From Physcia stellaris (taxonomy: Eukaryota > Ascomycota > Lecanoromycetes > Caliciales > Physciaceae), in assembly GCA_018902385.1 (NCBI GenBank), contig JABSSW010000051.1:248001-312000 (forward strand): DNA of 64,000 nucleotides. The letters run 5' to 3'. A model generated the notes under the pieces. The model was not told the origin of the DNA and did no database searches. It worked only from the letters and a program-made list of their open reading frames with translations. Positions 14,210 through 60,485 of the stretch are shown here, piece after piece (position 1 is the stretch's first letter; each line of letters begins with the position of its first letter). Both the position numbers and the translations under genes were made by a program.

Positions 14210-16733
<2,524 letters not shown>

Positions 16734-35064: not shown

Positions 35065-35408
35065 CTACTCTGAAGAGCCACCACTTAATCCTCCCTTCCG
35101 ACCAGCTTCCTTGGCTGCCTCACTGCCCTTCTCGAAAGATCCGCTGGAGGCCTGCCCACCCATGGATGCAATTTCTTTCTTTTCAAGAGGTCAATGCTAG
35201 ACTTAACATCTCCACTGGCGTTGGGACTAACCTGCTTGTCTGGATCCATACTGGGAAACCCTCCCTGATGGTTACTTGCTCCACCTTTCTGAGCGATGTT
35301 CTGGACCTCCTCCTGTCATATTGTAAGTGGTCAACACGGACGATAGAACCAGTAACCACCAATCTTGGGTCGGTTTGCAAAGTTGCCGGGGTTATCTTTG
35401 CCAGACAT
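35065..35408 (-). CDS. Small KGG-repeat stress protein with a non-canonical splice donor
   Basis: Three exons on the minus strand (35364-35408, 35232-35312, 35065-35178) give 79 residues starting MSGKDNPGNFANRPK. Two to three copies of the KGG hydrophilic repeat follow (EVQNIAQKGG, EIASMGGQASSGSFEKGSEAAKEAGRKGG in two pieces). Such proteins (GsiB-like, related to fungal conidiation/stress proteins) are highly hydrophilic and accumulate under desiccation or during sporulation. The function is protective and not enzymatic. The second intron (35179-35231) is canonical. The first would have to begin directly after codon 15, but the sequence there is ATTGGT, not GT. All other GT sites before the next stop are in the wrong phase for every nearby acceptor. 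The gene is therefore either mis-spliced or uses an AT-AG type junction. Confidence 0.75.
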
Positions 35409-37176: not shown

Positions 37177-37987
37177 CGCGGACAATGGAGTAATAAGGCA
37201 GGTTAACAATGACGGTGGAGATTCCAGGCGTACGGAGTATGGAGTAAGTAAAGTACATCTCAGGGCATACGGTACGGACAACAAGGCTGAACTGCTAGCG
37301 CCAACCTAGCTGGAGATCTGCCAAAAGTCCTGTTCGGGATTGGCGCACTGGTCTGCCCGACACAACAAACCGTGGGACCAATCGATTGATGGGAAAAGGG
37401 CTGTCACACTTCTTTTGCAGATTAGCGTTTTCTATGTGCCGTTGGGGTGATACCTGATACCTCCACCCCAAGCTCGTGTGTCCTGTCCTGTCCTCGTACC
37501 TGGTTCTCACAGTAGCCCACACAGTCACAACGCTTCCCTCAACTCTTCCACGCACCTTGACCCAAGGTGACCGCTTGAGTTGCGCCCAGGCCTCAATCAT
37601 TCTTGCGCCGCCACAAACGCGTGGACAACATCGACAAGGTTACCGACCGTCATCAGCCTCCACCCACAACGGGTCTGTGGCCTTCATAGGCCAATCGATA
37701 GGACGCCATATCCAGGGATCGCGCGCATCATTTGCAGCAGCCTCGGGAGCACTATTTTAGTCTTTAAACGCTCCCCCATGTAATGTATCCACTGGCCCAC
37801 TTGCCTCAAGCTGCCATTTACAACACACAACCTGCCACTGCATGACATCGCGAACCCCCGATCCAGATCCCTCACTCACTGCTCCACACCCTGGCCGCCT
37901 CTTTCGACTCAACTTACCATTACCTCTATCACATCACAGTCATCGTGAATTCGTCTCGCATGCCGTCTCGTTGTTAAGCTTCTCATC
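37177..37987. promoter_or_regulatory. Divergent promoter region of the TMEM115-like gene and SIF2
   Basis: 811 bp between two start codons on opposite strands. The right part (about 37840-37985) is pyrimidine-rich, a typical leader. No gene and no defined binding site were found. Confidence 0.5.
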
Positions 37988-40109
37988 ATGCCGCCAATTG
38001 GTGATACGCTGACGGCAGACCAACTGAACTATCTGATCTGGAGGTATGCTCCCCAAGTCACCGTGGCCACCTCGAGTGATCGGCCAAATGAACTAATGAC
38101 GTGGCATCCCAAGGTACCTTCAAGAACAAGGTATGTGATGAGATTGGCTCTTCCAAGTCAACAAGATCATGGAAGAACCTCAAGAGATCTAATTGACCGT
38201 ACTCAAGGCCAGGGCAAAGCCGCTGCGACTTTGCAGCGCGACTGGCGAAATGGAGAAGATCCCGATAGACTGCCCTTTGCGACTACCATCACTCGTCATG
38301 CCTTGATCAGACTAGTGCATAAAGGGCTCCGGTATTATGACCATGAGCAGGCAGTTATCCAGAAGCAGGTACGTCCTTAATTTCGTGCTTGCAATTAACA
38401 TGAAAGCTCAGATTTGGTAGCGAAACATCAAAGCGACACCATTTTTTCAGGTAAATCCAGAGCAAGCGACTTCAACAGGTCAAGATATCAGCGAAGATGA
38501 AGCTACGAGCAAATCACAGATAACCCCGCCAGCCCGCAAACATGGTCGAGAAAGCACAGCAAACGGCCTTGGTCTTGATATACCGACTTCAGCGCCAGCC
38601 GCCAAGCGAGTCCGCCGCAGCCAGGGACCCGAAAGCGCGACTAATGGCGACTACATCGACAGCGAGCAAAACGGCGACCGTGTCCATGACGGGTTCCCAG
38701 TACCTGAGCCAGTCTCACCGTCGCACTCGCCTGGGCCGGAAGATGAGAAAAGCGACGTGGAGATGGACGATGGCCATGCGCCCGAACAGGCTCGCATGAC
38801 GCCCACCCTGACGAATGGGCACAGCGTTGGTGTTCAAAGCGACAAGGTTACCGAGCTAGGCCCTGAAACGACCCTGCTTACTGTTCCAGACGGGAAGCAC
38901 GTGATGCACACCGCTTGGAACCCGCAAGATCCATCCGTCTTGGCAGTCGCTGGCGACGCGCTTTGCCGCATCTGGAACATTGCCAAACGTCCCCAGTTAT
39001 CCGATGATCCTCACAAAAGGGATTTCTATGATCTGTTGGAGCCCTCCGAGACGGCCTTGGTAACCACGATCGCTTGGAGTCCCAATGGTGAGGTCCTGGC
39101 AGTGGCGACCAAAGGCACTCAAAAGGGATCCTTCGTGCAAATTGGTCTCGTCTCACTCTTCAGCAAGCGAGGGACCTCCATCGACGAGCAGCCTTACACC
39201 GAGGATGGAATCATCAGCTTCAAGTGGAATCCATCCAGTAGACTACTACTTGGCATCATTTCTTCGGGGGCTGCTGAAAGTACACTGGTTATCTGGGACG
39301 TAGAGAACCCTGAAGCTAAATCGTACTTCAAGCTGGATGGCATTGTCCGAGATGCCGCATGGACTGACAACGATCGTTTTACGATCTGCGGGCATAACAT
39401 GATTGGCTATTACAGTTTCGACGGGCAACAGATAAGCCTAATACGTGATCGTGCCGAGGAAGAGCCAAAGCATAGATGGAGTCACATACGGTTCGATCAC
39501 ACAACAATGACGACAGCAGTCGCCGCCGAAGACGAGTCAGTGTTGGCAATTATCAGCTCTTCCGATGAGCTACTCACCACTTTTGCACACGAGGAAGAGA
39601 TCACAGCGCTGGAGTACAGGCCTATCCCTAATCCTCTGTCGCTGTCCCCCTCATCACCTTGTCTTCTTGCAACCTCCGCTCTTGATGGGAAAATCAAGCT
39701 TTGGGACGCCCAGAATCCTTTCAATATCATTACTACCCTCGAGCTCGGAAAAGAGACGCCTCCCATGGCCGTCAGCTTTACACCTGACGGGTGTTTCGTA
39801 GCTGCAGCACACTGGAACAAGATTCTGATCTGGAACCCAGAGTACTCCAACACACCGAAAGCTATTTGGAAAGGCGATCTAGGACACTGGCAGCCCGTCA
39901 CAAATGGACTTGACCGAGACAGTGGGATCGGCGAGGAAGATGAGCAATTACCACAGCATTGTCTAAGCTGGGATGCTGACGGACGCAAGTTGGCCTATGG
40001 ATTAAAAAACCAAGTTAGTCTTCGGTCGTACCCCTTTGAAAGGTCATTCAAGCGCTAACGCTTTGTAAAGGTGGCAATATTAAATCTACGATCCTCATCA
40101 AACCGCTGA
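37988..40109 (+). CDS. SIF2: LisH/WD40 co-repressor subunit of the TBL1/Sif2 type (Set3 complex)
   Basis: Five exons (37988-38043, 38114-38130, 38208-38368, 38451-40013, 40071-40109) give 611 residues. The N-terminal LisH motif (ADQLNYLIWRYLQEQG) is assembled from three exons, one of only 17 nt. A variable acidic linker with a basic patch (AAKRVRRSQ) follows. The last 370 residues form a WD40 propeller with HTAWNPQDPSVLAVAGDALCRIWNI, TTIAWSPNGEVLAVATKG, LATSALDGKIKLWDAQ and AAAHWNKILIWN. The last exon of 13 codons completes the final blade as GLKNQVAILNLRSSSNR; reading through its intron would give an out-of-family tail. Relatives anchor NCoR/SMRT-type or Set3 histone deacetylase complexes in the nucleus, where LisH mediates tetramerisation. 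Confidence 0.92.
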
Positions 40110-41390
40110 ACATGGCCCGTTGTGGTTCGGAACGCAAGATTTGAACGACATCAGACAACCTTTTCCCGCCACGCCTGTCATCTTGACAACGAGTGCCGCC
40201 TCAGACAGGTGGGTCTCAAAGTCCCGCCTCACTACCGTTCTGTTCAGCAAGTTCACTGTCCTGCCAGGTCAGATACATGGGTCTAGCTCCAAGAGTTCGC
40301 CGTGGGGTCGACGAAGGCGCCGCCTTGAACACGAGGCGCTTTCGCTCATCAGCTATCGGTACTCTGGAATGCTAAGATCGCTGAAAGGGCCGAGGCAGAA
40401 TGTGAATGTCCTTGTCCGATGCGGGCCGAGTGAAGTGGAAGGCTCCAGGCTTGCGGACTGAGGCAGGGGCTACGGGGCGGCGGATACTTCAGTCATCTGT
40501 CGGTTGTGATACCAGTCCAGCGTTCCTCTTCTAGTTTTTTTGACTACAAGGCGGAGTTAGAATGGGTGTTTGTCGAAGGGCGATGTCCGCTTTGGTGGAC
40601 TAGGATAGCAAGTGGTGAACATAGGGACTCTTCGGTCGGAAGACATGTATACTTGTACAGATATTGTAGATTTATTGAATGCTGATGGATTCACCGCACT
40701 CGCAACAACAGGCTCGATTAACCCTAAGTATGTAGGCCACGGACGTATTTCCCCCCCAAGTACGAGTACTTGGTACCATTTCAAACCCAAGCAATACCGC
40801 ACTCTAATCGGGAGTACATTCTACCATCATCATGGCACATTATTGTTTACAACGAGTAAGTGCACAGGTTTCCATCGAATCATCTCGCATTCTCTGCCTC
40901 CTATGATCTATCGAACTTTCCATCTCGACCTGTCACAAATCCCCAAGAGGATAGCTGCAGATGTCAACGGCTGCATAGGTGCATCGACCCACGCGAATCT
41001 CGCAACCGGGTTTTTTCCTATTCTCCTATGAATCGTGATCCCGCCTTCCCCGTCCCTGTGGTACTCTATATCTATCTCTATTTTCCCCTAGCTTCTACTT
41101 TTCTTCCGATATGACCGGGCTTGAGTCCTGCAGTATTTTATGCTTTGCTGCTGACCTTACTCCACCCGCCAATGCATCTTCGAGTTTCTAAGTCGCGGTA
41201 TTGTCCGATCTGCTATGACCATCAGGTGCCGCGACCCTGGTCCTTGGGCAACATGCCATAGCGTAGGTCATTCGCTCGTCTTCGCTTTGCTGTCCCGAGC
41301 GCGTTGCGAGCCGCAGACAGTGCTTTTCAAAGATTAACCCGAGCCCCTTTACTCGACTCCTTGTGAATCCATATCTATACATCAGTACTC
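40110..41390. other. Intergenic region with no assignable gene
   Basis: About 1.3 kb. Frames at about 40120-40461 and 40612-41031 lack features. The last part is the promoter of the next gene and carries CT-rich leader sequence. Confidence 0.45.
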
Positions 41391-42211
41391 ATGTCTGCTA
41401 TTCCCATTGCCGTCGCGGAGGCTAACAAGACCTGTTCACCCAGTGACCCAGCATACGTCAACCGCATGGCGCCCTTAACCCTCGCTCAAGACCGGCTCGC
41501 CCGTGGCCAAAATCCAGGACCTTCGGGTCCACCCTCCAGTCAATTTAGGACTGGACTCAAATCGCCGGCAAAACCTCGAGTCTATCTAAGACTCCCAGGA
41601 TGCTACCACAAAGACAAATCGTTAATGGAAACGAAAGAGGAGCCGATGCCGGGTGTGAAGAAGAACGAGATGTGGGAGGAGAGCCAGCGGCGGCATAAAG
41701 CGGCGGTGATACTGGGGAGCTGGGAGATGACGACCTGGCATTCGGTTGCTGGGAATGAGGTACGTCTCTTTACCACGCTACCTTTCCTAGTTTACCACAT
41801 CGTCGAGCGTCTACTACTGTTCAATCTGATATTGGTCTGACTGTGTCCTACTCAACCAACTGCCTGTTGCATCACAATAGCTTTGAAAGTCATTGCGCTT
41901 CAAGTTATGAATAAGATACTCCCATCAATACTCTCGTTGCGCTGCTACTCATAGAAAATCATTCTCAATTACACAATATCTCTTCGTCCTCTACCTTTCT
42001 ATTGAGCTTACTCTTAACACCTGGACTTCTACAGAGTTCCCCACAGACCGCACTCCGCCTCAAACGCATGTTGATTGGGCTCCCTGACCAACCTGGCAGC
42101 GATCAGTGGGAAGACGAGCGCAACCCCGGCGATGATGACTCTGGACAAGGCTCTAGTAAACACTCCGAAATTAGTCCGCAGGCCAAAGGGGGCCCGAGGC
42201 GAAAGCATTGA
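41391..42211 (+). CDS. Unknown 181-residue hydrophilic protein
   Basis: Two exons (41391-41759 and 42035-42211) give 181 residues. The start MSAIPIAVAEANKTCSP follows a CT-rich leader. The 275-nt intron begins GTACGTC and ends TTCTACAG in phase 0. The protein is soluble, rich in Pro, Lys and Glu, with a Trp-containing centre (GSWEMTTWHSVAGNE) and an acidic-to-basic tail ending GGPRRKH. No domain is recognised. The frame before the donor is open and well formed. The second exon rests on phase and on its charged composition, so the C-terminal third is less certain. Confidence 0.55.
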
Positions 42212-42700
42212 GAAACGACATTGTTCCTGGAGCGCAGGCCTGACGCCGGCTACAGCAAGAATAGACGGGAGGAAAGAATATGACCTTACAGAGCCAGTGG
42301 TTAAATGGGCGGCTACTGGATCACTGGCGGGGGCGCACATGAAGTCTTCCTCTTCCCATATGTATCTACAATCAGAATATGTACCATATCAATTACGTAC
42401 GAAACCCAATGGCAGCTCTTCAAGTCCCAACACCACACTTCCACCCACTCCCGATCTAAATCATCCAGACAACAACCCAGATGTCATTATCCCTCCATGA
42501 TCATCTACGCCGCACTTCTAGAGTATCCCCGTGGTCTCTCTTTTTCGTCTAGCTTCGTTCACCATGCTCTCCGCATCCCCCACCTGTCGCCTTTCGCTGA
42601 CCTCTCGACTCAGCAATCGGCTCCGGATAGCTGCTTTCATCATAGGATTAGTACTAGCCGACGTCAATCCTTGGGATTCGTCCCTCATGACTGCTAGTTG
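42212..42700. other. Convergent 3' region
   Basis: 489 bp between the 181-aa gene (plus) and the kinase gene (minus). No gene was recognised. Confidence 0.45.
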
Positions 42701-44182
42701 TTATTGTAGAGGCTCCGAGGACGATGATAGGCGATTTAGGTGGAGGTAGACATCCGTACCGTACCTATTGCGAGTTAGCTTGATCTTCTGAGGCAGGAAG
42801 ACAGGGATGTAACGACTAAAACGGAAGCGTACCCTTCAAGACTGATCAACTTCAAGTCACCCCCAAAGTATCGCGCATAGAGCCTCGATATCGGCAGTCC
42901 GTACCCAAAGCCAGCCATCGGTGCCTTGAAGTCGCTCTTATTGAAATCAGGATCCAGATTCGGCGTCGTCTCTACTGTGGTGTACATATATGTCCACACC
43001 AGCGGGATGGCGCTTCTTGGTATACCACCACCTTCGTCGCTGATCTTGATCGTAATATCTTCTTTACCTTCAGCAATGATGACCTTCGTGACCGGAAATT
43101 CTTGCTTATTCTGGCCGTGCGTTTCCACCACAGCTCGTAGGCTGTTCTTCAAGGTCTCGAAGAGCATGTGTGAAAGATGCCCGGGAACGTACATGAACTC
43201 CAATCCGGGTTTGCAGACTAATTGAACTTTAGGAGCATCAAAGAGTCCGTAGTGATCCTCGCATACAAACCGCGCATTTTCAATGGCCTCTTGGGCGAGT
43301 TCGCGGACATTCGTCCGTGTGCAGATCACCCCAACGTAGTTTGGTTCTGTATGAGACCTTTGATCGGTAAGAGCAATATGCTGCCCAATGAGCATACGGA
43401 TACCGATGCGAGACATGTAGAAGCGATCAAGGAAAGACTGGATGGTCGAATCGATTTGCATACGTTGCCTGTTCCGCTTGTACTCCAATATACCTTGGGC
43501 TACTGTTGTAACTACGCTGTCATGCCTTCTTTTGATGCCTTCCAAGGTTTTTGCGAAGCGCTTGTTGTAGTCATTGAGTTCGTGGGGCCAGTCACCGCCA
43601 TCATCTGCTGCAGCATAGTATCTCCTCGACGACGTGCTACCTTTGCCGCCGTTCCCGTTTGTCTGCCGCGATGTATACTGGCCTTGCTTTACGCTTGGGT
43701 TGGAGGTGGTGTGGCTCAGGATCTTAGATTCTCTACCATTTTGCTTTGGGGATCTGATGAGCCGTTCTCTTACATCCGCTGCAAGATTCGGTCTGGGGAG
43801 GGTCGTGAGTTCCTTGAGGACACATCAGCTTCTGTAAGGCGAATATTATGTGCGTCTCGCGGCGTACCTCGAACGACTGCGCATACCAGTCCTGCACCTT
43901 TTTGATTGAGGGCATCTCATTTAATTGGTCTGGCAGTTCACCTAGTTCTTGCACTCGATGTGCCAACCTTATTGGAAGCTCCTCTGAAAGGAATTGGGAT
44001 GCGCGGAACAGCGTGCCTTACGATGGGATCAGCTTCATGCTCAACTGTCCAAACAGGTCAGATGCACCTGTTGACGGCCTCTCTCCAAACTGCACCATTT
44101 GCCGTAAGCTAACTCCTGTTGCCGGAAAGCCCGAATAATGCTTGATGGTTTCCATCAGCCGCTCTGAGGCTTTCCATGACAT
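42701..44182 (-). CDS. Mitochondrial pyruvate-dehydrogenase-type protein kinase (PDK/BCKDK family)
   Basis: Four exons on the minus strand (44068-44182, 43868-44016, 42833-43812, 42701-42764) give 435 residues. The N-terminal regulatory helical domain shows GFPATGVSLRQMVQFGERPS, LFRASQFLSEELPIRLAHRV and MPSIKKVQDWY. The GHKL ATPase domain has the N-box ETLKNSLRAV, the G1 box SDEGGGIP and the G2 box GFGYGLPISRLYARYFGG. The 21-codon last exon restores the conserved end YGTDVYLHLNRLSSSSEPLQ. The kinase phosphorylates and switches off the E1 subunit of the pyruvate (or branched-chain) dehydrogenase complex in the matrix. A stop codon near 44018-44020 falls inside a 51-nt intron and is not a mutation. 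Fungi have two or three paralogues, and I cannot tell which this is. Confidence 0.93.
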
Positions 44183-44604: not shown

Positions 44605-44639
44605 CCCTCCGCATCCAATTAGTGAAATTTAGCGTGTTT
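44605..44639 (+). repeat. Left terminal inverted repeat core of the piggyBac-type element
   Basis: 35 bp identical to the reverse complement of 53337-53371. It keeps C-rich sequence (CCCTCCGCATCC), so it escaped the C-to-T mutation seen in the interior. Confidence 0.9.
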
Positions 44640-44760
44640 ATTTCGCGATCTCCCCCCCCCACCTGCAACCACCATTTACTCCATCAATAATACGTCTATT
44701 CTGGCCATTGCGACGTTGTTTGAATCGTCTGAATCGAGTCTATTTTATCATATAAACAAC

Positions 44761-45290
44761 ATGTCATTTGCTGAGTCAACACCTGAGCTAGTCATCGTGC
44801 AAAAGAAAAAAAAAACACGCGTCGATGCAAACGTCTTCATTTCGAAATCGAAAAAACGATTTTTCACTGTATTGAAACAGCAAAAAGTCATTCAAACGTC
44901 TGAATTTGATTATACATTTTTTATTACATTTATCTATCGATCATTTCAATTGAATCACGCTTGTATGACGTCTTGAAAATTCGTTCAATTGTTTTTGTTT
45001 CTTTTGCAATCGATATTCGATTTATTGTTTTATCACATTAATCAGACGATTTATATCAAAAAAATCAACTGAAATGCACTCATTATGATGAAATTACGTC
45101 AATGAATTGTTATACGCATTTTCATGACTCAACATTTTGCAAAAAATTCAACAATTCAATCATTTTGATTTCAGAAAAATGTCAACAATTTATCATTCAA
45201 TCGCGACCGATATCAAATCATTGAACGTCATTTGAACGTTGAATTTAATCAACAGATGTCATACAACAATGCATCATGATTTTGAAAAAT
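44761..45290 (+). pseudogene. 5' relic of piggyBac-type transposase
   Basis: An AT-rich relic starting MSFAESTPELVIV with frames broken by stops. Near 45170-45240 the reading NNLSFNRDRYQIIERHLNV resembles the N-terminal segment of DDE_Tnp_1_7 transposases that normally reads about S-x-x-R-Y-E-Q-I-x-R-x-L-H. The relic stops at the left LTR and resumes after the right LTR at 51910. Confidence 0.55.
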
Positions 45291-45610
45291 TGTAAAAGAT
45301 AAAAATTCAGAATCTTCGGAAGTGCGACTCGCATTTCGTCAAGCAATTCGATTATCGAAGTTCGAATGACTTCGAAAAAGATCAGTCTCAATCATTTTAC
45401 AACTCGATCAACGATAAACTCAACAAACTCATATTTTCAGTCGAAGCCGATCGAATTCGTACGATTGAACAAATAGAATGTAAATAAAAAACAGTTGCAA
45501 AACGTAATTTGTTCTGTAACGATTAATAAATCAATATATTACATTTCAAGTTATACATTTCTGATGTCAATAATTCATTAAACTATATTATTTCTAGTAC
45601 GAGTTTTACA
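45291..45610 (+). repeat. Left LTR
   Basis: 320 bp aligning end to end with 51592-51909. About 30 substitutions and one 2-nt gap separate the two copies, about 9 percent divergence. All substitutions are C/T or G/A and fall in CpT or CpC context. Confidence 0.92.
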
Positions 45611-46158
45611 TTCTAATCGTTATCATATTTCAAAGTGATGTCACTCGTGTATATTTAACAGAACACAGTTTTGTTGCTTCGCATATATCATGTCGAGTTC
45701 TGATAATGATTTGCTTTCTGAATTTGTCGAGAATGTTGATTTATTTTTTTGATTGATCTATTACAAACAACAAATCGAAAAAAATCACAAAAAAAAAAAT
45801 CAAATTCAAAATTCGAATTGTCGAGCGTTCGAAATCTGCAATCATTATTTCATTTGTTTTTATTTCATTTACTTTTGTTTTTGATTTTGTTTGAAAATTT
45901 TTCGTCATGAAAATCATCGAAACGACATCGAATCAATATGAAAAAGAAAATTACAAAAAATGAAAAAAATATTGCAAACAAATGAAAAGTCAATTCACGC
46001 AAAACAACGTGAATCACATGATTCAATTTTCGAATTTAATCAAAATCGCATATGTTGATATTTATTTTAAATCAAATAGCAATGCGAACAAATTTTGAAA
46101 CGCAAAAATCGATTTTCATTCAAACAAACAATACATTTGAATCGAATTCAAGATTTTT

Positions 46159-46702
46159 TTGAAAAACGACATCGAGCGAGCAATCACGTTGCAACAGAAT
46201 TTTTTGGAAAAATATCGCAAGCACAAACAAAGTCACAATCAATCGATTAAAAATTACAATATCGAACGAATAAATATGTTTGCTGAATTGAAACTCGAAT
46301 TCAAATTCACGAAAACAATGAAATTCAACGATTTTCGTGACGAATTACGTTTGAAATTTCGCTGCATGTTTTTAAAAAAAAAAGATTTTCACAAAAACGA
46401 AATTGCTTGAACGACTCAAACGTATGAAAAACGCTCAAATTTTGAAAAAAAAATTCAAGAGTTTCAAGAAACGTAAAATTTCGTTCGATATTGACAATTC
46501 TGAAAACGAAAACGAGAAACTCAAAACTGCGAAATTTAAAAGTAAAAAAATCAAAAATATTAACAAAATCAATTCGAATCACGAGTCAATCAAGTCGAAA
46601 AATACTCGAATGTATCGTTGATTCGCTAGCGAATTCAAAAAAATTCAAAACAAAAATAATTGTATAAATTGTGACAAATCAAATCATCAAATCGAAGTTT
46701 GC
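46159..46702 (+). pseudogene. gag relic with CCHC zinc knuckle
   Basis: A charged, Lys/Phe/Asn-rich frame (about 46159-46410) resembling a capsid region is followed, after stops, by C-I-N-C-D-K-S-N-H-Q-I-E-V-C at 46661-46702. This fits C-x2-C-x4-H-x4-C, the nucleocapsid knuckle of retroelements. Translation is interrupted by several stops. Confidence 0.7.
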
Positions 46703-47399
46703 ACAGACAAAAAAAACAAAATCATTTTCGCTGATCAAATTTTTGAACAATCAAAAAACTAGTCGATTTGATGATTTTCGCTCAAATCGCTAAAAAGAAA
46801 AAATTTTCGAATTCTGATTTCGATACGTCGTTTTTTTCAGACATGAGCAAAAATCATGTTAACAAAAAAAAAAACGACGCAAGAAATTTAGAAAATTTGT
46901 GATTCGTAAATGCGTTAAAATCAAAATTAACATACAAAACAAAAATCAAATTTGAAACGAATCGAAAACAGTATTCGATACAAAGACGAAAATTAATCTG
47001 ATAAATCATGTTTATGCGAAAAAGTTCGATTTTCGTCGTTTCGAAATTCTAAATTGTGATGCAATAACAGTTGACAGTCATCGTTTGAAAACATACGACG
47101 TTTATTTCGTACAATTCGAAGTGTCAGACGTCAAAAAAATCAATCGCTTTTTCGAGAAATCGTTTTTGATCGTGAATCTGAATTGAAATTTAACGTTAGA
47201 CATGTTTTGAATACAATTTTCGAAAATCAAAGTGAATTGAAACGACGACAGTATCAAAACTTGACGTTGCAAAAAAAAATATTTTATTTTCACGACGAAT
47301 CGTATCGAAAACATCGAATCAAAACAATTGATCATAAACGTCATCGATAACGAAATTGAAACGTATTTCATGTTCGTACGAATGTATATTGACAAGCAA

Positions 47400-50300
47400 T
47401 TCGACATGCATGAAATGCACGTTTCAAAACGAGTTCAAATAAAGTCTGTTTTGACTGAAATAAAAGAAAAATTCGATGTCAAGATTACGCTTTTCGATAT
47501 TTTGAAAACGTATGAAAAATTCGATAACGAAAATAAAATTTACGAATTATCGAATCATGACTCAGACGATTATGCTATTGATTTAGAAAAAAACAAAAAA
47601 TCGTCGCATGAATCAATTTATTTTTTATTTGAAAATGAATTTCGAGTATTACGTGTTTACATCGAGAAACATTTAACTAACGATTTCATTCGATTTTCAC
47701 AATTTTTTGCAAAAACGTTCATTTTGTTCGTCAAAAAGAAAAACGATAATTTACGTTTATGTGTGAATTACAAAAATCTTAATGTTTTCACGATAAAAAA
47801 TAAATATTTTTTATCGTTAATCGATGAAAATTTAGATAAATTCAACAGAATCGTCAAATATATCAACATCGATTTGATTGTTGTTTATCATCGATTGCGT
47901 ATCAAACATGAAAACGAATGAAAAACAGTTTTTCGTATTCGATATGATCATTTCGAATATAACGTATTTTTTTTCGATTTCATTAACGTTTCGACGACGT
48001 TTCAAGATTTTATCAATCGAATTTTGACGATTCGTCTCGATATTAACGTCATAATATATTTGAACGATATAGTAATTTATTCGATGAACGTCGAAATTCA
48101 TGTCGACGATATCAAATGAATTCTTGATCGTTTTAAGAAAAATAAGTTATATATTGTTTTTGAGAAATGCAAATGATTCGTTGACGAAATAAACTTTTTT
48201 GAATTCGTTGTTTCACTCAAGAAAGTACGAATGCAAAACAAGAAAATCGAAATTATTCAGCAATGATTTGTATTTCGCAACGTTTTCGACATCATGTAAT
48301 TTTTCGATATCGTTAATTTTTATCGACGATTCATTAAACATTTCAGTAAAATTGTTGAATTTTTGATCGCTATGCTAAAAAAATCGCAAAAATTACGAAA
48401 GAATATTCGTAAACGCAAACGAAATCAAAGTCGAAATCGCAACAAATTTTCGAATATTCACATTTTTTTGATCAATGAAACGTTGAAAATTTTCAAACGA
48501 TTTCGCAAAACATTTATCGAAATATCAATTTTACGTCATTTCGATTTCGAACGTGTTATTCGAGTCGAAATCGACGCATTCGACAAAATTATCGAAATCA
48601 TTTTATGTCAACAAGACGACGAAAATCATTGACATTTTGTTGCGTATTTTTCACGCAAAATGATTTCGATCGAATGCAATTACGAAATTCATGACAAAAA
48701 GTTGCTGATTATTGTGATTTCGTTCAAGCAATGAAGACACTATTTCGAGAACGCAAAAAAACAAATTTTTGTTTTTATTGATCATCGCAATTTGAGACAA
48801 TTTATGATCACAATTAGATTGTCGTCACGTCAGATTCGATGAATTCAAAAATTGAATCGATATAATTTTTTAATCGATTATCGTTTCGATAACAAAAATT
48901 TTGTTGACGAATTTTCAAGACGATTTGATCACATGATGATTATTGAAAAAAACGTCGAAAACAATCGTCAAATTTTGAAACAATTGCAAAAATCATTGAT
49001 CGCAAATTCGAAACGTTTCGAAAAAATGCGAATAAATGCGATCAAAATCATGAGTGCGATGCATGTCATGAAACGACTCATGAATGCGATGCATAACATG
49101 AAACGTCGATCGCATTTAAATGATTCAAAAAATATCGAATCAATCAACGTTGTTTCAAAAGCATTTGATTCAAAAAATTCAAAACGAAATCGAATTTCAA
49201 TCAGCGTTGTTTCGAAAACATTCGATTCAAAAAATTCAAAAAATTCGAAACATTCGATTGAACAAAAGTCAAACGTGACATTCATAAAATGAAAAATTTT
49301 TGTGTTAAAATTAGCGATTGTATTTGAATGCGCAATGCATAAAATTCGAATACAAATTGTTTTACGAAAAAAAGCGACATATAACGACGAGTCAACATTT
49401 TCATTGTTGAATTTCGTTCGAAATTTGATCGATAAAAATCAATTCGTTTTTGAAATATGTCGAAAATTAATTATTTCGAAAACAGAAACAAATCATTGAT
49501 AACACAAAAATGAATTTTTGTATTACGACGATGTCGTTTACATTTCAAAAAATTTGCGTGAAAACGTTATTCGTGCACATCACGATAATTCGTTCGTTGA
49601 TTATTTCGACATCGAACGAACGTTGAAATTGATACGTCGAAAATATTATTGATCGAATCAAAATTTTATCGAAATTTTTGAAATGCGACAACAAATCAAA
49701 AAATATTGTGAAACATGCGTCGTTTGCAAACGAAACAAGATTGCACGACACAAATCATACGACGAGCTTTTTTTTTTCGATTTTTGAATTTAAATGAATT
49801 GATTTTTTCATGAATTTCGTGACAGAATTTTTTTCAAATAAAACGTGAAATGAAGCGATTTACGACTCGATTTTAATGATTGTGAATCGTTTAACGAAAA
49901 TGATTCATTACATATCAATGATTAAAACGATTTTCGCAAAGAATTTGATCGAAATCTTATTTCGCGAAATCATTCGATTTCACGATTTTTTTTCGTCAAT
50001 CGTTATCGACAAAAATTTCATTTTCATATTCAAATACAACGATACGCTGTGTTACGTTTTGAAAATCAAACGTAAATTGTCAATCGTTTTTTATTTTCAA
50101 ATCGATGAACAAATCGAGCGAATGAACAACGTCATGAAACAATTTTTTCGCGTTTTCGTCAATTTCGAACAAAATGATTGAATAAAATTGTTGTTCATGA
50201 TCGAGTTCGTTTACAACAACAACAAACACGCATTCACAAGCATTTTTTCGTTCGAGATTATGTTTGAATATTCGTTTCGCATGTTTTTCGAAAAAACATG

Positions 50301-50560
50301 AAACAAAAAAACTAAATTCAAATTTGCAAAGAAACACGTTGAACATTTAACTGAATTATTTCGAGTATTGAAAGACAATTTATTCGTGACACAACAACAG
50401 CAAACGATGTACAAAAACGAACGCACGAAATCAATGTCATACAACGTCGAAAATTACGTGAATTTGAACGATAAAAACATCAAAATTAAACGAAACAAGA
50501 AATTGAAATGAAAATTCTTTGAATCATTTCAGATTTTAAAAATTATAAAAAATCAAGTTT
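47400..50560 (+). pseudogene. pol relic: reverse transcriptase, RNase H and integrase
   Basis: Reverse transcriptase signatures appear at 47640-48110 (LRLCVNYKNLN, then TFQDFINRIL). The catalytic motif reads YLNDI at about 48057-48071, so the first Asp of the usual Y-x-D-D has become Asn. RNase H traces (YFSRKMISIE, IFVFIDHRNL) follow at 48640-48840. An integrase zinc-binding piece with CETCVVCK lies near 49710-49735. The integrase core (MIVNRLTKMIHY, DKNFIFIFKY, EQIERMNNVMKQF) spans about 49876-50180. Stops, mainly TGA in Trp positions, and Gly-to-Asp and Pro-to-Phe/Ser type replacements run throughout. The element is inactive. Confidence 0.85.
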
Positions 50561-51591
50561 ATCGTTTAAATTTATTCAAACGCTGACGCATTCACGACGT
50601 TTTTCACGTTTTTTTTTTAAAGAAATTCAATGCTAAAAAGAAAAAAAAACATACGTCACATTTTTTTGAATTTTCGTATCAAGTTGAAAATATTGAATTC
50701 GACGAGAACATGAAAATGAAAATCACGAAAAAATTCTATGAAATCGAAATCATTAAAAACAACAAGATTTTCAAAGCAAATGAAATTTCAAACAAATTTT
50801 ACAACGAATTCGATTTCTATTATCTGATAAAGTGAAAGAATTATGAAAACGCGATTTGAAAATTTGCATCGTTTGTCAAACATTTTCGAGAAATTTTGCG
50901 ACAATTTCACAACGAAAATTCAAAAAAATTTGATGTCAATAAAAACAAATCATCGAAAATCACGAAAAAGTGAGTTGAAATATTTATTGCATATTAACAC
51001 ATTTTCGTTTTCAAAAATTTTGTGTGTTATTTATTGTTTAGAATTTACGACGCATGAAAAGCTGAACTGTGTCAAAAACATTTTCAGAAATTGTTGTTCG
51101 ATTTGATCGAACGATGAATCGTTGAATAAAAAATGTGAAATGAAATCAAAAAAATTTCGAAATTTGAATATCAATGCGATCGCGATTAATGAACGTTTAT
51201 CGCGTTACACATTTTTTCATGATATCGATGTTGATATTCGAAATAAAAAAATGAAAAAATGAAAAAATGTTCGAATTCAAAACTTTTTGTCAACAAATCA
51301 ATTGTCAATCATCATGTCGAAAATTGTGAATTGTACGAAATCAGACATTCGATCATGAAAACAACAAACAATTGATTCATCAAACTATGTTTTTTCTGAA
51401 ACATTCAAGAAGATGTTTTCTCAGATTTTTAACGCAAATTGATTATCGAATTCGAGACAAAATATTTCGAAGTGCGAAAATCACGATCATAATAATTCTT
51501 CAAATCGATGCAAAACAAGACAAACAAAATACGTCAGAATTTTTGTTAGCATGTTGATTTCAAAAAACTTCGATGTTAAAAAAAAAGCGTA

Positions 51592-51909
51592 TGTAAAGAA
51601 TAAAAGTTCAAAATTTTCGAGAATGCGATTCGCATTTCGTCAAGCAATTCGATTATCGAAATTCGAATGATTTCGAAAAATCAATTTCAATCATTTTACA
51701 ATTCGATCAACGATAAATTCAACAAGCTCATATTTTCAATCGAAGTCGATCGAATTCGTACGATTGAACAAATAAAATGTAAATAAAAAGCAACTGCAGA
51801 ACGTAGTCTGTTCTGTAACGATTAATAAATCAATATATTACATTTCAAGTTATACATCTCTGATGTCAATAATTCATTAGATTATACTATTTCTAATACG
51901 AGTTTTACA
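51592..51909 (+). repeat. Right LTR
   Basis: 318 bp, the direct-repeat partner of 45291-45610. Starts TGTAAA and ends TTTTACA, like the left copy. Confidence 0.92.
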
Positions 51910-53080
51910 AAAATCGAAAACGCTTTGAACGTTTTCAAATCTCAATTATACTCGTTTATTCGTTCTGAAAATCATTTTGCAATTGACGAGTTCGCAATCG
52001 AATTTCACGATCGTATGAATAACAAATTTCGTTTATCACACAAATCAGCGAAAAAAAATTTCGTTTTATACGTTTTGATCAATGATAAAAACATTCTACA
52101 CGATTTCATGATGTGAAAATTTCGCGATGATTTCGAATATCACAAAAACGATATCACGATCGATATATTTTCAAAAACGACTCGAAAACGTAAAAAAAAC
52201 ACTATTGAAATCACTGTTATGAAAATTAATCTTTCATTTACGAAAAAAACAATATATATTTTTTGCGAACGAATTACACGCAATTTACGTCATCATCATT
52301 TCGTTTGTTTCATCGACAATTTTTTCACGAATTTTCATTTCGTCAAAATCTTTCTGATTCTCAATGTTGATATTTGTGACATCATACGAAACAATGCAAT
52401 GAATATATCACAAAAATTGAAAGAAATAGTTGTTGCAAAAAAGTCACAATTGAATTTAAAACAATGAATATATCGAATTGTGAATGAATTGATCAATTGT
52501 TTCGTGTGAAAAAATTCCGAACGAAATCACGTGATCTCATTTGTTATTACTGCATATATTTCACAAGCAAACGAGCAAACATCACGAAAAATTCGATTCA
52601 CGATCGATATGTTTTTTCGTGACGATTTCAATAAAGTCGTCGTCAAACAACTCATTATTGCAATGCAATACAATTTTCATATGAATCATGTGAATCGTGC
52701 AAATCAATTTCGAAATGAACTGACGATATCACGATTTGAACAATTCAAATGAACGAAACGAATGATCGAATACATGATGAATTCGATCAATACGAATGCA
52801 TACATCGTTTGAAATCATCATCAATCACAAACGAATTCTGATCATCGAAATCGACGTGTATTTATTCAAAAATTGATTGATGAACTTTTACGAAATTCAA
52901 ATATCATATATCGATCGTCAAAGTGTGTCAAATCGACGTATTGTAAATGAAATGATTGTTCGATCAATTTTCACACGAAATCTCGAAAACGTCAAGCACT
53001 CAATTTCAAAAATGTCAATATACAACATCGTTCGAGTCGTAAAACGTTTGATTATTGTATGACATGTAAAATGAATTTAT
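51910..53080 (+). pseudogene. 3' relic of piggyBac-type transposase
   Basis: Continues the transposase after the nested retrotransposon. Recognisable pieces in order are FAIDEFAIEFHDRMNNKF (the first catalytic Asp region), VLYVLINDKNILHDFM, HHFVCFIDNFFTNFHFVKI (the second Asp region, normally Y-x-DNxFTS), IIRNNAMNISQKLKE, and MNHVNRANQFRNELTI, matching the family's NxMxGVDxADQLR segment. Several stops are TGA where tryptophan is expected, consistent with G-to-A change of TGG. Confidence 0.7.
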
Positions 53081-53336
53081 GCGTGTCATTTGAATGCTTC
53101 AAAATCTATCATGATTCGAAAAGATGATCATACGAATGCTTTGATCAATAGAAAAATTTGAAGACGTTTCGAGACACTTGAAAATGATTTAATGATTTGA
53201 AACGAATTTCGAATGTAATCATATTTCAATTATTGAATGTTTATATACTATCGAACTTTTTCATTGAATTATACACATATACACGTAAATTTGGTGGAGT
53301 AATGGTGGTTGAAGTGAGGGAGGAAAGATCGCGTGA

Positions 53337-53371
53337 AAACACGCTAAATTTCACTAATTGGATGCGGAGGG
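53337..53371 (-). repeat. Right terminal inverted repeat core of the piggyBac-type element
   Basis: 35 bp, the exact inverted partner of 44605-44639. Ordinary base composition resumes immediately to its right. Confidence 0.9.
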
Positions 53372-54339: not shown

Positions 54340-55736
54340 ATGGCTGGCCCTCCACACACCATGGCCTATCCGGTCCCTCGCTTTGGCACTCCAAAGACGC
54401 CACAGCACTTCGATCAAAGCCTGGACGATAGCCCTCGCGATAGTCCTCGTGAGATAATGCCTCGCACAAACGAGAAAGCAAGACAATACAAGCGATACTT
54501 TCTGGGCGCTGTGACTGTTCTCCTGTTTCTGTTGTGGGTGAGGACCTCAAAATCCTCCGTAAAGCAGACAGATAGAATCCCATTCACCCATGATCCAGTT
54601 GAGGAGTGAGTAATTGTACTTCCTAATTCGAGGCTGGATTAATTGACGATTGTACAAGCTACTTCAATCACTTCGAAGGCCACCAGGACTGCGGCGTAGC
54701 ATCCACTGATCTCTATAAACCACCGGTCATTGCAAAAGCAGATCCCCAGAAGCACCTTCATCACTGCCAAAATCGCGGAGCTCTCCTTGAGGCCATGAGT
54801 AGCGGCGGCCGCCATGGTTTTGACGCTCCTTTTGTGCCAGCAAGCTGCCATTACCGCTGGTACTCGACAATTGAAATCTGTATGATCCTCGAGCGCTTTG
54901 ATGCCATTGTCTTCATCGGCGATAACATGCTTCAACACATCTACGCTGCATTTAACATGCTCTTGCGGGAGAACATGGCCATGGGAAGCTTAAAGCAATG
55001 GGAAATGTCAGAAGACCAACGTGTGAATTGCAGATGTGATAATCAAATTACAAGACCTGAATGCTCGAAGTACGTCGTGATCGATAGCGAGGAGGTGCGC
55101 AAGAACGACCCAGGAAGCGGGCATCCAAGTCCTTACCGCTGCAATCGTATGTATTGATCCCATTCATCTCTGCTGGGTGGTGGGCTGACAGATGCAGGCA
55201 CTCCACATTATATGCTTCCCATCACCACGTCGCCTTCGTCAGAAGAGCTTCAAGCCACTCTCACTTCGACATTGGCTAAGGACCCTGACTCCTACAAACC
55301 CATTCCCATTATCCATTCGCTCGGTCTTGCTACCTCGCTTTCTTGGCCTGCAGCAACCGCTTCGATGGATGAGTGGCTTGCATTAGCTGATGCCTCGTCG
55401 CGTAATGTTCCTTTTCTCTGGCTTGGACCCAATGCTGCAGGTCATCTCAAGCCACCCGGCCAAATCCTAAGCCAAGGTAATAACGCGCTATGGCACTACA
55501 CTATTGAGATGACCAAGGAAGCTAGAAGCAGGGACATAGACGCCCTGGGGTTGTACAATCTGACCCTGCAGGCTAGCAGCTGGGATGGAAGTAACTATGC
55601 TCAGCGAGTTCTGCTTGTAGAAGCGATGATGGTAAGCCGACTACTCCTTTTCACATCTGACACTTGACAGCAACCGTGCTGACGGCAGCTTTCGCATTAG
55701 ATCATCAACTGGCTATCCAGACTTGAGACTACATGA
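54340..55736 (+). CDS. Type II membrane protein of an SGNH/PC-esterase-like fungal family
   Basis: Four exons (54340-54605, 54659-55146, 55198-55631, 55701-55736) give 407 residues. A Pro/Ser-rich cytosolic tail of about 50 residues with basic KARQYKRY leads into one hydrophobic segment (about 53-67), predicting a type II Golgi or secretory-pathway protein. The luminal part has paired Cys and a block DAIVFIGDNMLQHIY (GDN at residues 176-178) placed like the GDS block I of PC-esterase/TBL-type acyltransferases. An SWDGSNYAQRVLLVEAMM block near the end resembles the C-terminal DxxH-bearing region. Ser is replaced by Asn in GDN, so catalysis is uncertain. A role in glycan modification or binding is only an inference. 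The short fourth exon (IINWLSRLETT) fits but is less certain. Confidence 0.7.
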
Positions 55737-56603
55737 GCGTCTGCCTCCAAGCTGCTCAGCGCTTCTTGTGGTGGTGTCCACGTCTATTCTATAGAGCCAA
55801 CGCGATGATTCGAAGCATATCAATTTTGTCATCGAATAAACCTTTAGAGATATTCTTCGTATCTGGCAGAATTGCTACTTAGAGCAGCCTGCTTCAGATC
55901 CAAGAGTTATTCGGAATATTAATTCATCCAGTACTTCTCTTACGTAGGATCAAAGTCCATCTCATTACTTACTGCACCACCATAGACCAATATTTCCCAT
56001 CAAATTAATATGCAGATTTCGCTAATTGGGAGAGGCGGCAGCCGTAGAACCGCTAGACGCTATTGCGTGCAGCGCTGCAGGGAGTGAAACATATACGGCC
56101 TTTATTACAAAGGGTATGTCCATCGATAAGCTATGGGCGTCCTGGAGAAGAAGCTCATGAGACCGCCGACATAATGTGATGGGAGTGCTGATACAGGATC
56201 TTGACCTCGGCAACAGGCAATCTGACTCGTGGTCTTGTTCTTTTCTAATTCAGAAAAGTGGTTGAACGAAGGAAGTAACCCACGGAGGCTCGGGGTGTCC
56301 CGATAAGACTTCTCAAGGTCATATAACAGCTTGACGGTCTGAAGATGGACGAAATAGAAGGACGAGGCGCTAGTCTATACGAAGTTTGAAAAGGAGGCGT
56401 TGCAATATTAAATGATGTATGAAGAAGTCTATTCTGGTTCACAAGCTGAAGGGGACGCCGGACGTCGGCTGCGCAACAAATAACGGTAAAGGAGTGTAAA
56501 AGATCTACCGAAAACCCGTGATCGAAGAAGACCGGCAACTTTTTTCACACAGTCCTTCTGTGTTGTAAGAGCCGAAAAACCCACATCAAAGCCGCGCCAC
56601 CGC
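55737..56603. other. Intergenic region with no assignable gene
   Basis: 867 bp between the SGNH-like gene and the end of a putative minus-strand gene. Only short, featureless frames. Confidence 0.4.
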
Positions 56604-57314
56604 TCAAACGCAACCACGTCCATTCCCACAGTACCATCCACCAATTTGTGCCGGAGCTGCAGCAGGACCAATGATTGGCTGTGGAGTAGGTGCCATGATG
56701 GACTTGGCGGTGGCATTGGTGGTACCTCCCGCGTTGTTGTCTGTATTACGGATTGGTCAGCCAGCAGACTCGCAGAGATATCGGCAATACGCTACGTACG
56801 GGTGTCGATGATCGGTGGACGTCTGTACCATCCGTTCAGAAGAGGAAAACGGTTTTCATTAGATGCCGGCAGTTGCGCTTCAGGAGCCGCACTTGTCTCA
56901 TTCCTGGAGGTGCTTGTAAACCCTGTAATCGATTAACACCATAGAGAGCACACCCTGCGGAAGCGACTGACCAAAAACGAACGTGTGTGCCGCCTTCTCG
57001 ACCTGCCGTCGTCCATGAGGTCGATACCAGCCGGATGCAACAGCCCTGTCATTGGGCCGTGCTCCGATCACTGCAGGACTAGGACCTACTGGGGTTGGAG
57101 TGGGCAGTATAGATGCCAGAACACTACTGGTGGAAAGGCTACTGGATTGCTGGGATATCGTTACATCTATCTGCGAATCAATAATAGCGCAGAGATCTGC
57201 TTGCTGGATGGGGGCAACGGACTCGATGAAGTGGGCAATGCGTGAGAGGAAAGGGGCAAGAGAAGAGCGGCCGTGGAATAGAGTGTGACCAAGAGCATGA
57301 CGAAGAGGGTGCTT
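56604..57314 (-). CDS. Putative protein with Gly-Trp-Tyr modules, 5' end unresolved
   Basis: Three phase-consistent exons on the minus strand (56972-57314, 56800-56922, 56604-56740) give 200 residues plus stop. Introns of 49 and 59 nt begin GTCAGT and GTACGT and end TTACAG and ATACAG. The chain is low-complexity (Ser/Thr/Pro/Ala), with FIESVAPIQQADLCAIIDSQ early on. Three related units each place a GWY after a Pro-rich stretch: VIGARPNDRAVASGWYRPHG, NRFPLLNGWYRRPP and APAQIGGWYCGNGRGCV, the last forming the C-terminus. Upstream, in another frame, an ATG at 57298 starts MLLVTLYSTAALLLPLSSHA, which looks like a secretion signal, but no clean splice joins it. The gene may be secreted and may be damaged at its 5' end. 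I do not recognise the family. Confidence 0.4.
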
Positions 57315-57390
57315 CTAGAAATGGTTGAACAGCGAGTGAAAATATCTGAGACAATATTGCTGGAGATCTCATCCACACATGCAGCATAGC

Positions 57391-57400
57391 CTATTTATCC
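57391..57400 (-). promoter_or_regulatory. TATA-like element for the putative minus-strand gene
   Basis: On the minus strand the sequence reads GGATAAATAG, about 95 bp upstream of the signal-peptide-like ATG at 57298 and pointing toward the GWY gene. Position and sequence fit a TATA box, but this is not proof. Confidence 0.25.
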
Positions 57401-58167
57401 CCAAATCGGAGGGGATCCACCCTTCTTTATGGTTTACACACTACTGAGTAGAAGTGCAAGAATGAGATACAGAGACCAAAGCACTGTGACGGTACTATTG
57501 CTTGCAGCACCCACAGTCCAACCAAGTAACGGCTGTGGACTATTTATGTGATTTGGTGCGAAGCGTGAAGATAGGTCGGATTCAGATTGCAGTAATCGTT
57601 AGACACGAGTCGAGTACGAGCAGCCTTTGTCATAGGACGCATGGTCTCGAGATTAAGAGAGACTTTCAGAGTTCCCACCAAGGGAGGACATGACTGCAAG
57701 GACCCGGTCTAGCGGAGGAATGGACAATCCCTTGCATCGGAGTGTACTGCATGACATGACAGCGCCCATGGTGGTGGGACGTCCTGACGACCAATGGCCT
57801 ACAACTGGAGCGTCATTGATGCACAATTCTCCGAGACTACATCGTATTTGCACTTTGCCTGCTTCCAGTTTGTCCTTTGCATGAGCATGTGCCGTCTGGA
57901 TCTTGGAAGCTTCTCGACAAGTGCGACATTGCGTTGGTGAATGCTCTCGATAGGCTGAAAGACTCCATGCTCGAGATGTCTGTCATGTCTTACCTGGGTC
58001 GTTTTGCGCCTCTAGCTTGGATCATTGCATCCGTAGCTCCCTTGGGACACCCTTATGCGGTCATATATAGAAGAGCAAGGTACTGCAGGAGTCCTTGAAA
58101 GTCTATACGTCGTATATCGACAATTATCTTGCATTCGAAAGCTCATAGGCGCCGGCTAATTTTCAAG
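57401..58167. other. Divergent upstream region
   Basis: 767 bp between the putative GWY gene (minus) and the rhodopsin-like gene (plus). No gene was recognised. A short palindrome-like TATACGTCGTATA lies near 58104. Confidence 0.4.
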
Positions 58168-59820
58168 ATGGCTGAATCTCCAGGCAAGATGGTTGCGCTG
58201 GCTATTGTATTGAGCATTCTCGCAGTGGTAGCAGTATTACTCCGATTCTACGCCAGGCGTATCAAGGGAACCGAGTTTGCATGGGATGACTACCTGATTG
58301 TACCGGCTTTGGTGCGTTCAGAGACGCTTTCTGTAATCACTACCTGGAACCAGATACTGATCATTTTCCTTTACAGGCTTTCACGATCGCCACAGCTGTC
58401 TGCATGCTCGTCGGTAAATATCCCCTTCAACCCTGTGTTCCTTTGCATGTTCTTAGAAGACCTCAGGCACTACCCTTGGGGACCTTGGACGGCATAGCAC
58501 CATCGGTCCAGATGGATGGCCTATCATCGATCGTAGGACACAAATCCTTGAGCAGGTATCTCTAAGATGGATATGAACACGACTCGAATTCAGCTGATGG
58601 TGTTGGAAAGATTATCTTCGCCTCGCAATTAACGCAGACTTTAACCTTCGGCTTCACGAAGCTAGCAGTTCTTCTCTTTTATAACAGGCATGAGCTTTTA
58701 CTCTGTGTCATCTGTGCATAATTGCTGATCGATGTGGTAGAATCTTTGGGCAAGGCAAAATATTCCCGATTCTCCTTTGGACGATGGTGGGCATAACGAT
58801 TGCCTGGACCGTTTCTTTCTTCCTGGCCAATCTCCTCCAATGCTTACCAATCTCGATAAATTGGACTGGACTTGGGGGAACTCTTGAAGCTTGTGTTGAT
58901 ACTGAGGAGATGTACTTGGCTCAAGCATGGTCTGACGTGTTCACGGATGGTAGCGGACAGCTCTACTCACAAGTCGTATCACTGCTAACAGTCAACAAGT
59001 GATGATCCTAATTCTGCCTATACCCTCGGTAAGCTATGATTGGCTTTGGTCTGGTGTCGCTGTCCTAATGGTCGGCCAGATCTGGAGGCTGCAGATGCCA
59101 TCAGCGCGCAAGGCAGCTGTGAGCGGTATCTTTCTTCTGGGCGCCCTGTAATTCCCTACTCAAAAATAATTAGAAAGAGCTGACGCCAGACAGGGTTGTG
59201 GTAGCGGGAGCGGCTAAATTGATTATCTTCCGCAGGATTGCTGAAGGTATTTGGACATCATACTAGGATTGTCATGAGCCAATCATTTCGCTGATGCGCT
59301 GTCTGTGTAGAGGTCGGTTCTGGCAACGAAGACATCGCCGGTATGCCGTGGCAAATTCTCCGCAGGTTGTGGAGCCAAGGGGGTGCTGACTCGATGCAGA
59401 TGTCCTGACCCCTACCGTGTACTGGCCGATGGTCGAATCATCCCTAGGCATCTTAGGCGCGTGTCTCCCATCAATGCGCCCTGTATTTACAGGCTGCTCA
59501 TCTCGAGGTTTCGTTCGGAAACTTCGGAGCATATCGTACTACTCGTCGTCGCCAAGTACAACATATCACGATCGTGTGGAACATGGCACCAGAACATCAG
59601 ATGGAGACTCTGCTATGACTATTGCTCATATGGTCCCAGCAAAAGTGTACTACCCAGAGGATCACATTCGACTGTATGTTATCAGAACTTTTGATGGAAA
59701 ATCCATATCCATTGACTTGTCTATGTTAGTAATAAGTACTCGCATGCTGACAGCGGCGATGCTGAGCTGCTTGATCTTGAAAAGCGGGGAGGGATGTCAG
59801 AAAAGACTACTGAACAGTGA
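58168..59820 (+). CDS. Fungal rhodopsin-like (SAT4-type) seven-helix membrane protein
   Basis: Eleven exons: 58168-58311, 58377-58413, 58467-58555, 58611-58687, 58741-58949, 59000-59028, 59080-59147, 59194-59246, 59311-59340, 59400-59673 and 59730-59820. They give 366 residues, and every phase closes. Helix 1 (MVALAIVLSILAVVAVLLRFYARR) is followed by WDDYLIVPAL, helix pairs around FTKLAVLLFYNRIFG, WTMVGITIAWTVSFFLANLLQC, YLAQAWSDVFTDVMILILPIP, ARKAAVSGIFLLGAL and TPTVYWPMVESSLGILGACLPSMRPVF, all family hallmarks. The C-terminus is soluble and charged (SGDAELLDLEKRGG). The intron at 58688 starts GC rather than GT. Members are abundant in Pezizomycotina, and most have no known ligand or function. 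Confidence 0.85.
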
Positions 59821-60485
59821 AGAATGGTAGGGAGTTGTGTGACTTGGATAACGAAGGAGAGGCGTGATGTATACTTTTCGGGGCTAATGTCGATCTGGTA
59901 TATTTATGAGTTCCATCGTTGATAGAGGCAGGAGAGCTGGAAGAAGTATTTTTTTTTTTTTCAAAAGCAACACTTGATACGATGAGCGTTCTGCATTATT
60001 GTTCTCTTTCCCAGCATAGGGCAAGGCATGCAGCCTTTCCTCCAGTAGCCCTTTCTGTCAGAGGGAGTCAGTGCTACCTACTTCGCCTCAGTGGGGTGGA
60101 GCGGAGTAAAGCTGGATACCGTAGTTGATATCAATATGGTAAGACCAAGGTTGTGGGCAGGGTGAAGTTTTGCAGTGACAACGGTTTCCTTTCTACTTGT
60201 CCAATCGGATCGTAGCATTTCTACGAAGTGCCTTACCTTAGTTCCGATGAGAGTGCGGCGACCTTATAAAATTATTATTACAGTACTTTAGATTTCAATA
60301 TCAAGAGCCTTCCACAATCCACAGTTCACAGGCTTGCTTGCTTGAATACATTCTACCATTCGTGGCCTGAAAAGCCATTCGCGAGGATGAATGACGTCTG
60401 GCACATCCTCCGTACCCAAACAAGCGATTAGCGCTGCTTCTGGTAGAGGCTTGCCCCTTTGCCTGTCCTCACTCCATTTCGACAT
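59821..60485. other. Intergenic region
   Basis: 665 bp between the rhodopsin-like gene and the Uds1 gene, containing a T tract at about 59949-59961. No gene was recognised. Confidence 0.45.

Follow-up and report, generated by a model that had tools for sequence, protein, structure and literature searches.

Within a 64,000-nucleotide stretch of the Physcia stellaris genome (contig JABSSW010000051.1 of assembly GCA_018902385.1, positions 248,001 to 312,000; hereafter the window) lies a long terminal repeat (LTR) retrotransposon relic whose two LTRs have diverged by transitions only, which raises the question of what process mutated this element and at which sequences. A sequence-only reading of the window had proposed C-to-T mutation resembling repeat-induced point mutation (RIP) and specific for C followed by a pyrimidine (CpY). 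The proposal is now supported by several element families and by a polarised test on ribosomal DNA (rDNA), and the target order is CpC > CpT >> CpA > CpG. The element and its borders are as follows.

45291..51909, + strand: LTR retrotransposon relic with reverse transcriptase (RT)/RNase H remnants (LTR pair; RT_RNaseH_2 and RVT_1 matches)
45291..45610, + strand: 5' LTR (LTR alignment)
51592..51909, + strand: 3' LTR, 30 CpY transitions away from the 5' LTR (LTR alignment)
45286..45290, no strand: left target-site duplication AAAAT, flanking the element
51910..51914, no strand: right target-site duplication AAAAT, flanking the element

Sequence context of the C-to-T changes

Global alignment of the two LTRs (45291-45610 against 51592-51909) gave 30 substitutions and 2 gap positions, and all 30 substitutions were transitions, reproducing the roughly 30 differences, every one a transition, of the sequence-only reading. 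Its division into 26 CpT and 4 CpC was matched by 26 CpT, 2 CpC and 2 mixed sites that read CpC in one of the LTRs and CpT in its partner. Cytosines kept in both LTRs comprised 33 CpA, 36 CpG and 8 CpT, and changes at CpA (0/33) and CpG (0/36) were absent; if changes fell at random on the 107 C sites, the probability of 30/30 at CpY would be 1.5e-19. Over the element as a whole (45291-51909) the observed/expected (o/e) ratios were 0.01 for CC, 0.02 for GG, 0.28 for CT and 0.42 for AG, with 1.21 for CA and 3.10 for CG, and in the window flanks all dinucleotides lay between 0.69 and 1.20. CpA and CpG, which had been called abundant in the LTRs and the island, persist there. The further claim of no change at CpA stood for this LTR pair and fell in heavily mutated copies, as described below.

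The direction and order of the changes were determined in an rDNA unit with partial small-subunit (SSU), 5.8S and partial large-subunit (LSU) genes (L042, C41:42300-48600; L033), which is hypermutated at CpY; among the 39 scored of 2644 candidates, the mutated copy was the sole 5.8S match. Against the Rfam consensus, C-to-T changes at conserved positions affected 79/88 CpC, 50/93 CpT, 1/74 CpA and 0/76 CpG, and 8/505 A/U positions were changed. This count took only upper-case consensus letters followed by an upper-case letter; 4 C sites with other changes and alignment blocks that were ragged, incomplete or in expansion segments were left out. CpC was used above CpT (p 7e-8), and none of 40 cytosines with a 5' C and a 3' A or G was mutated.

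The sequence-only reading had suggested counting C-to-T changes by following base against a least-mutated copy. When this was done for Copia elements, with the lightly mutated L057 as reference for two mutated copies (L058 and L059), the changes amounted to 48/51 and 51/51 at CpC, 51/77 and 69/76 at CpT, 1/94 and 4/94 at CpA, and 0/78 and 2/78 at CpG, so that CpC and CpT stood far above CpA. Transversions numbered 0 and 2 in 698 sites, and changes in the reverse direction 2 (CpT) and 7 (4 CpA, 2 CpT and 1 CpG).

Further copies of the LTR element were sought with its first 910 bases (45291-46200), for which all 40 scored of 235 candidates were genome matches. Twenty of the 39 other matches were compared with the window copy, namely ranks 2 to 24 less C81, C83:5750 and C23:1295, in which the contig would end before the element; this sample is biased toward the copies most similar to the window copy, and L013 is cut by its contig end. 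Each of the 20 retained between 0 and 15 CC+GG dinucleotides in the whole element. Pairwise C/T differences per comparable sites among the 21 copies, in pairs that are not independent, were 811/824 at CpC, 33384/38374 at CpT, 12354/110066 at CpA and 3821/107841 at CpG. Since pairwise differences undercount exhausted contexts, the context order was rested on the rDNA and Copia counts. By alignment column the share of T was 0.92 at CpC, 0.82 at CpT, 0.095 at CpA and 0.034 at CpG, and 0.17 before a mixed A/G base. In columns where at least 3 copies kept C, the loss per copy was 0.40-0.96 at CpT, 0.03-0.12 at CpA and 0.01-0.04 at CpG; CpA loss was highest in heavily mutated copies, and CpG loss stayed within its range.

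Two usable LTRs were present in 13 of the 21 copies, the window copy among them. Their LTR pairs differed at 188 CpT (72 kept), 15 CpC (2 kept), 6 mixed C/T, 37 CpA (391 kept) and 1 CpG (463 kept) sites, with 4 further differences in other mixed contexts and 18 transversions, 8 of them in L017. The contrast between CpA (37/428) and CpG (1/464) was significant (p 2e-11). Per-copy losses and LTR-pair counts together indicate that CpA is a slow secondary target, whose rate we estimate from the kept shares at about one fifteenth to one hundredth of that of CpT, and that CpG is spared.

The stop codons of transposon relics agree with this context. By our reading of the code, TGG to TGA is the only new stop made directly by CpY mutation, and an excess of TGA is therefore expected. 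Stops were present in 133/137 RVT_2 matches and consisted of 401 TGA, 101 TAA and 3 TAG (stops are shared between copies, so that the counts are not independent); DDE_1 matches carried 44 TGA and 3 TAA across 9/10 rows. The spectra of these two families back the TGG-to-TGA change noted earlier in the window, whereas CpA-type RIP has been argued to give TAA and TAG stops (in the part of PMC3828140 concerned with stops).

Neither of the usual, though not universal, marks of RIP, CpA preference (rDNA CpA 1/74) and positive standard indices, was found here. By TpA/ApT and the composite RIP index the island scores as less RIPped than its genic flanks, so that usual RIP tests would miss the CpY form. 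An index built for CpY, (CpC+GpG+CpT+ApG)/(TpC+GpA+TpT+ApA), was 0.073 in the island and 0.90-0.91 in the flanks.

Mutated and spared repeats

The mutated island (about 44.68-53.30 kb) is larger than the span originally noted, because the LTR element is nested in a second mutated element with terminal inverted repeats (TIRs). The features concerned are listed below.

44605..44676, no strand: left TIR of the outer element, CpC and CpT kept
53301..53371, no strand: right TIR of the outer element, GpG and ApG kept
51829..52113, + strand: open piece with a DDE_Tnp_1_7 match (outer element), starting within the 3' LTR; 23.6 bits, cut-off 22.4
44677..53300, no strand: hypermutated island, 11 CC/GG dinucleotides in 8.6 kb (dinucleotide count)
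1..44000, no strand: unmutated control DNA, CC o/e 0.93
55000..64000, no strand: unmutated control DNA, CC o/e 0.88

The LTR element is bounded exactly by the 5-bp duplication AAAAT and was inserted into the outer element. Its coding remnants are an RT_RNaseH_2 match at 48300-48629 that fell short of the cut-off (E 1.2e-5) and, at 47922-48116, a weak match to RVT_1, and its gene order appears Ty3/Gypsy-like. The outer element's DDE_Tnp_1_7 match presumably represents a piggyBac-type transposase, and the stretch 51910-53371 had 49 genome matches. Roughly the terminal 70 bp of this element retained CpC and CpT, and 6/11 of the island's CC/GG dinucleotides lay within 110 bp of a TIR. The left TIR contains a run of nine C at 44652-44660, where the TIR arms are only 79% complementary. 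The + strand of the LTR element is rich in A (0.397, against 0.320 for T), so that target numbers may differ between its strands.

Mutation edges were examined at the end of a truncated copy (L030) and at the edges of the window island, and mutation stopped at both. At the L030 end, CC+GG recovered from near 0 to its normal level over some 200 bp, just where the repeat match ends, which points to recognition of the repeat and not to chromatin spread. C:G-to-T:A transitions were thus concentrated in repeats and spared adjacent genic DNA, both at the L030 edge and in the window flanks.

The repeats affected are unrelated to one another and comprise the LTR element, the TIR element (by composition only), Copia L058/L059, DDE_1 loci and the rDNA pseudogene. 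Among the DDE_1 loci, L044, L045, L047 and L051 had 0-1 CC+GG per kb, L048 (which L052 overlaps) and L049 had a mutated middle and normal ends, and L046 and L050 were mosaic. In L046, otherwise normal DNA is interrupted by patches, each about 200 bp long, in which CC/GG is scarce or absent; these may reflect gene conversion or short homology tracts. The Copia copies L054, L055 and L056 lacked CpY mutation and had long open frames.

A probable mutator, its candidate enzymes and the alternatives

We consider it probable that a RIP-like genome defence mutates repeats from C to T at CpY in this fungus. Such a defence would act on either strand and in bursts, almost only before a pyrimidine, taking CpC first and then CpT, with CpA slow and CpG hardly touched. 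Repeats would be recognised by homology before meiosis, and a RID-type protein (the EET paralogue described below is one possibility) would perform or direct deamination alone or together with DIM-2, the CpY context being set by altered target recognition. As far as sequence can tell, the process appears to work like RIP, and a methyltransferase of altered preference, one of the agents first suggested, may be responsible.

A search for RID and DIM-2 homologues had been recommended, and it identified two RID-type genes and one DIM-2-type gene among four PF00145 matches at three places. The DIM-2-like protein (L010) had its best PDB matches in 9bap/9baq (608 bits), which we take to be N. crassa DIM-2. 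The RID-type genes, L009 and L011/L012, whose exon joins were set by eye, carry EET and EQT, respectively, at motif VI and share 40% identity over 174 residues. EQT or EET instead of ENV marks the Masc1/RID group according to the passages of PMC6709928 on this motif, which place EET in B. cinerea and Pseudogymnoascus destructans. Amselem et al., in the relevant part of PMC4352252, relate the CpT context of B. cinerea, S. sclerotiorum and M. oryzae to a motif of RID, and RID-type enzymes are described in the corresponding part of PMC13297926 as having shown no in vitro activity of their own so far. The mating-type gene found was alpha-box only. A more specific proposal, which we offer tentatively and hold at less than even confidence, is that one of the two genes, the EET-type one, turned into a specialised mutator that recognises C before a pyrimidine (CpC ahead of CpT) but neither CpA nor CpG, an inverted target code leading to near-total CpC erasure that would be invisible to TpA-based surveys.

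Several observations weigh against a RIP-like defence. The CpY context itself contradicts the usual preference of RIP for CpA, and CpA was not wholly exempt in the column tallies and LTR pairs. The Copia subfamily L054-L056 was unmutated despite containing two copies 99% identical (98.9% between L054 and L055), their differences showing no CpY bias, and the DDE_1 locus L043 was normal; L054-L056 are either a recent arrival or not acted on by the process now, and with L043 they suggest that the process may come in episodes or have ceased. Strand bias at p < 0.01 was found in only 4/21 copies: L027 (plus 127/282 against minus 235/313 lost, p 8e-14), the window copy (plus 209/282 against minus 187/311, p 3e-4), L030 (p 0.002) and L028 (p 0.008), the remaining 17/21 having p > 0.02. 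Clustering of same-strand neighbours beyond shuffles (p < 0.05) was confined to 5/21 copies (L017, L032, L028, L031 and L021), and opposite-strand concordance was raised in those five as well, indicating regional unevenness and not strand-coordinated tracts.

The absence of local clustering in 16/21 copies and of strand bias at p < 0.01 in 17/21 would suit a slow decay, in which a DIM-2-like methyltransferase methylates CpY in heterochromatin and 5-methylcytosine (5mC) deaminates spontaneously over long times, no active mutator being needed. The genome does hold a DIM-2 homologue, and DIM-2 is tabulated as active whatever base follows the C, with a preference for CpT (in the relevant table of PMC13297926). 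The amount of mutation speaks against this explanation: 43-98% of polymorphic CpY columns were consumed per strand and copy, as compared with 0.006 transversions per site among 15 full copies, and the Copia copy with 48/51 CpC changed had 0/698 transversions. We estimate the implied rate ratio at hundreds, which is above expectation for 5mC decay. Together with the strong strand bias of L027 and the fact that the L030 boundary falls where the repeat match ends, this makes slow decay disfavoured and, in our judgement, unlikely. That the pattern reflects base composition or an assembly artefact instead of mutation is scarcely credible, since its one point in favour is the island's low GC, while the flanks are normal, the copies differ by CpY transitions, conserved rRNA positions are changed and L054-L056 are normal.

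A free cytidine deaminase, AID/APOBEC-like or other, might alternatively edit repeats or reverse-transcription intermediates, as the sequence-only reading had allowed. The search for such enzymes that it advised gave eight deaminase-fold matches in the genome, and of the seven scanned (all but L034) two, L035 and L036, exceeded the Inv-AAD cut-off. A 5' G slightly lowered CpT mutation (0.75 after G against 0.83, 0.82 and 0.80 after T, A and C), and did so in rDNA too, where CpT was mutated at 11/17, 16/28 and 15/26 sites after T, A and C (42/71 taken together) and at 8/22 after G. This effect is small, however, and AID/APOBEC enzymes depend on 5' context. Both Inv-AAD-like proteins had 7drz and 7dry as their sole PDB matches, which we assume to be the Rib2 deaminase of the riboflavin pathway. 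An APOBEC_N search of the genome gave nothing, although control genomes were likewise without a match and so provided no positive control. Because both strands, DNA transposons and rDNA are affected, retroelement cDNA editing cannot account for the pattern. The small 5' effect and the identity of the Inv-AAD-like enzymes by PDB match led to rejection of AID/APOBEC editing, which leaves the deaminase option weak, and we regard any free deaminase as very improbable. The presence of two Inv-AAD/7drz-type genes in one genome may reflect a duplication.

Comparison with known RIP systems

The comparisons that follow refer to those parts of the cited papers that deal with RIP context. A RIP-like defence in P. 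stellaris would share with RIP of Neurospora crassa the C-to-T mutation of repeats on either strand, the stop codons in transposons and the presence of RID- and DIM-2-type genes. In contrast to the N. crassa order CpA > CpT > CpG > CpC (PMC5496416), the P. stellaris repeats sampled show CpC > CpT >> CpA > CpG. In T. reesei CpA and CpG come first at about the same level and CpC last, one relation sign being missing from the text of that source. CpC, the least-used target in both of these fungi, is here the first and practically exhausted, and P. stellaris therefore offers a natural contrast for what sets the target of RID-type enzymes. A 2025 survey concludes that RIP-like defences share a CpA preference (PMC12543289, in its relevant part); fungi scored as RIP-less may have the CpY form.

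The context of RIP varies between other fungi as well. A CpG or TpCpG bias is described in Aspergillus and Microbotryum, although the Microbotryum target, CpG (PMC4352252, PMC2621366), is spared here, and Monilinia shows double mutations from CpC to TpT but also classical CpA-to-TpA change (PMC8959702).

RIP rich in CpT changes has been described before. CpT-rich mutation is reported for Botrytis, Sclerotinia and Magnaporthe (PMC4352252), CpT overshadows CpA in N. crassa Tad1 by RIPCAL (PMC2621366), and CpT leads in Anisogramma (PMC10998396), in the RIP-capable fungi of one survey (PMC7882544) and in several Colletotrichum truncatum families (PMC6180176), where TpA/ApT values of 1.61-1.67 correspond to CpA depletion. 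P. stellaris resembles these fungi in having CpT to TpT as a leading change, and an EET-type RID is found in B. cinerea too (PMC6709928). In Botrytis, Sclerotinia, Magnaporthe, Tad1 and Anisogramma, however, CpA goes with CpT, and in the C. truncatum CpT families CpA is depleted, whereas here CpA is undepleted and CpC comes first. No report of CpC-first RIP with CpA kept was found in the literature searched, a scope outside which the Clutterbuck 2011 survey lies. CpT as a leading RIP change was thus already known from the cited work, and what distinguishes P. stellaris is that CpA is left undepleted and CpC is taken first.

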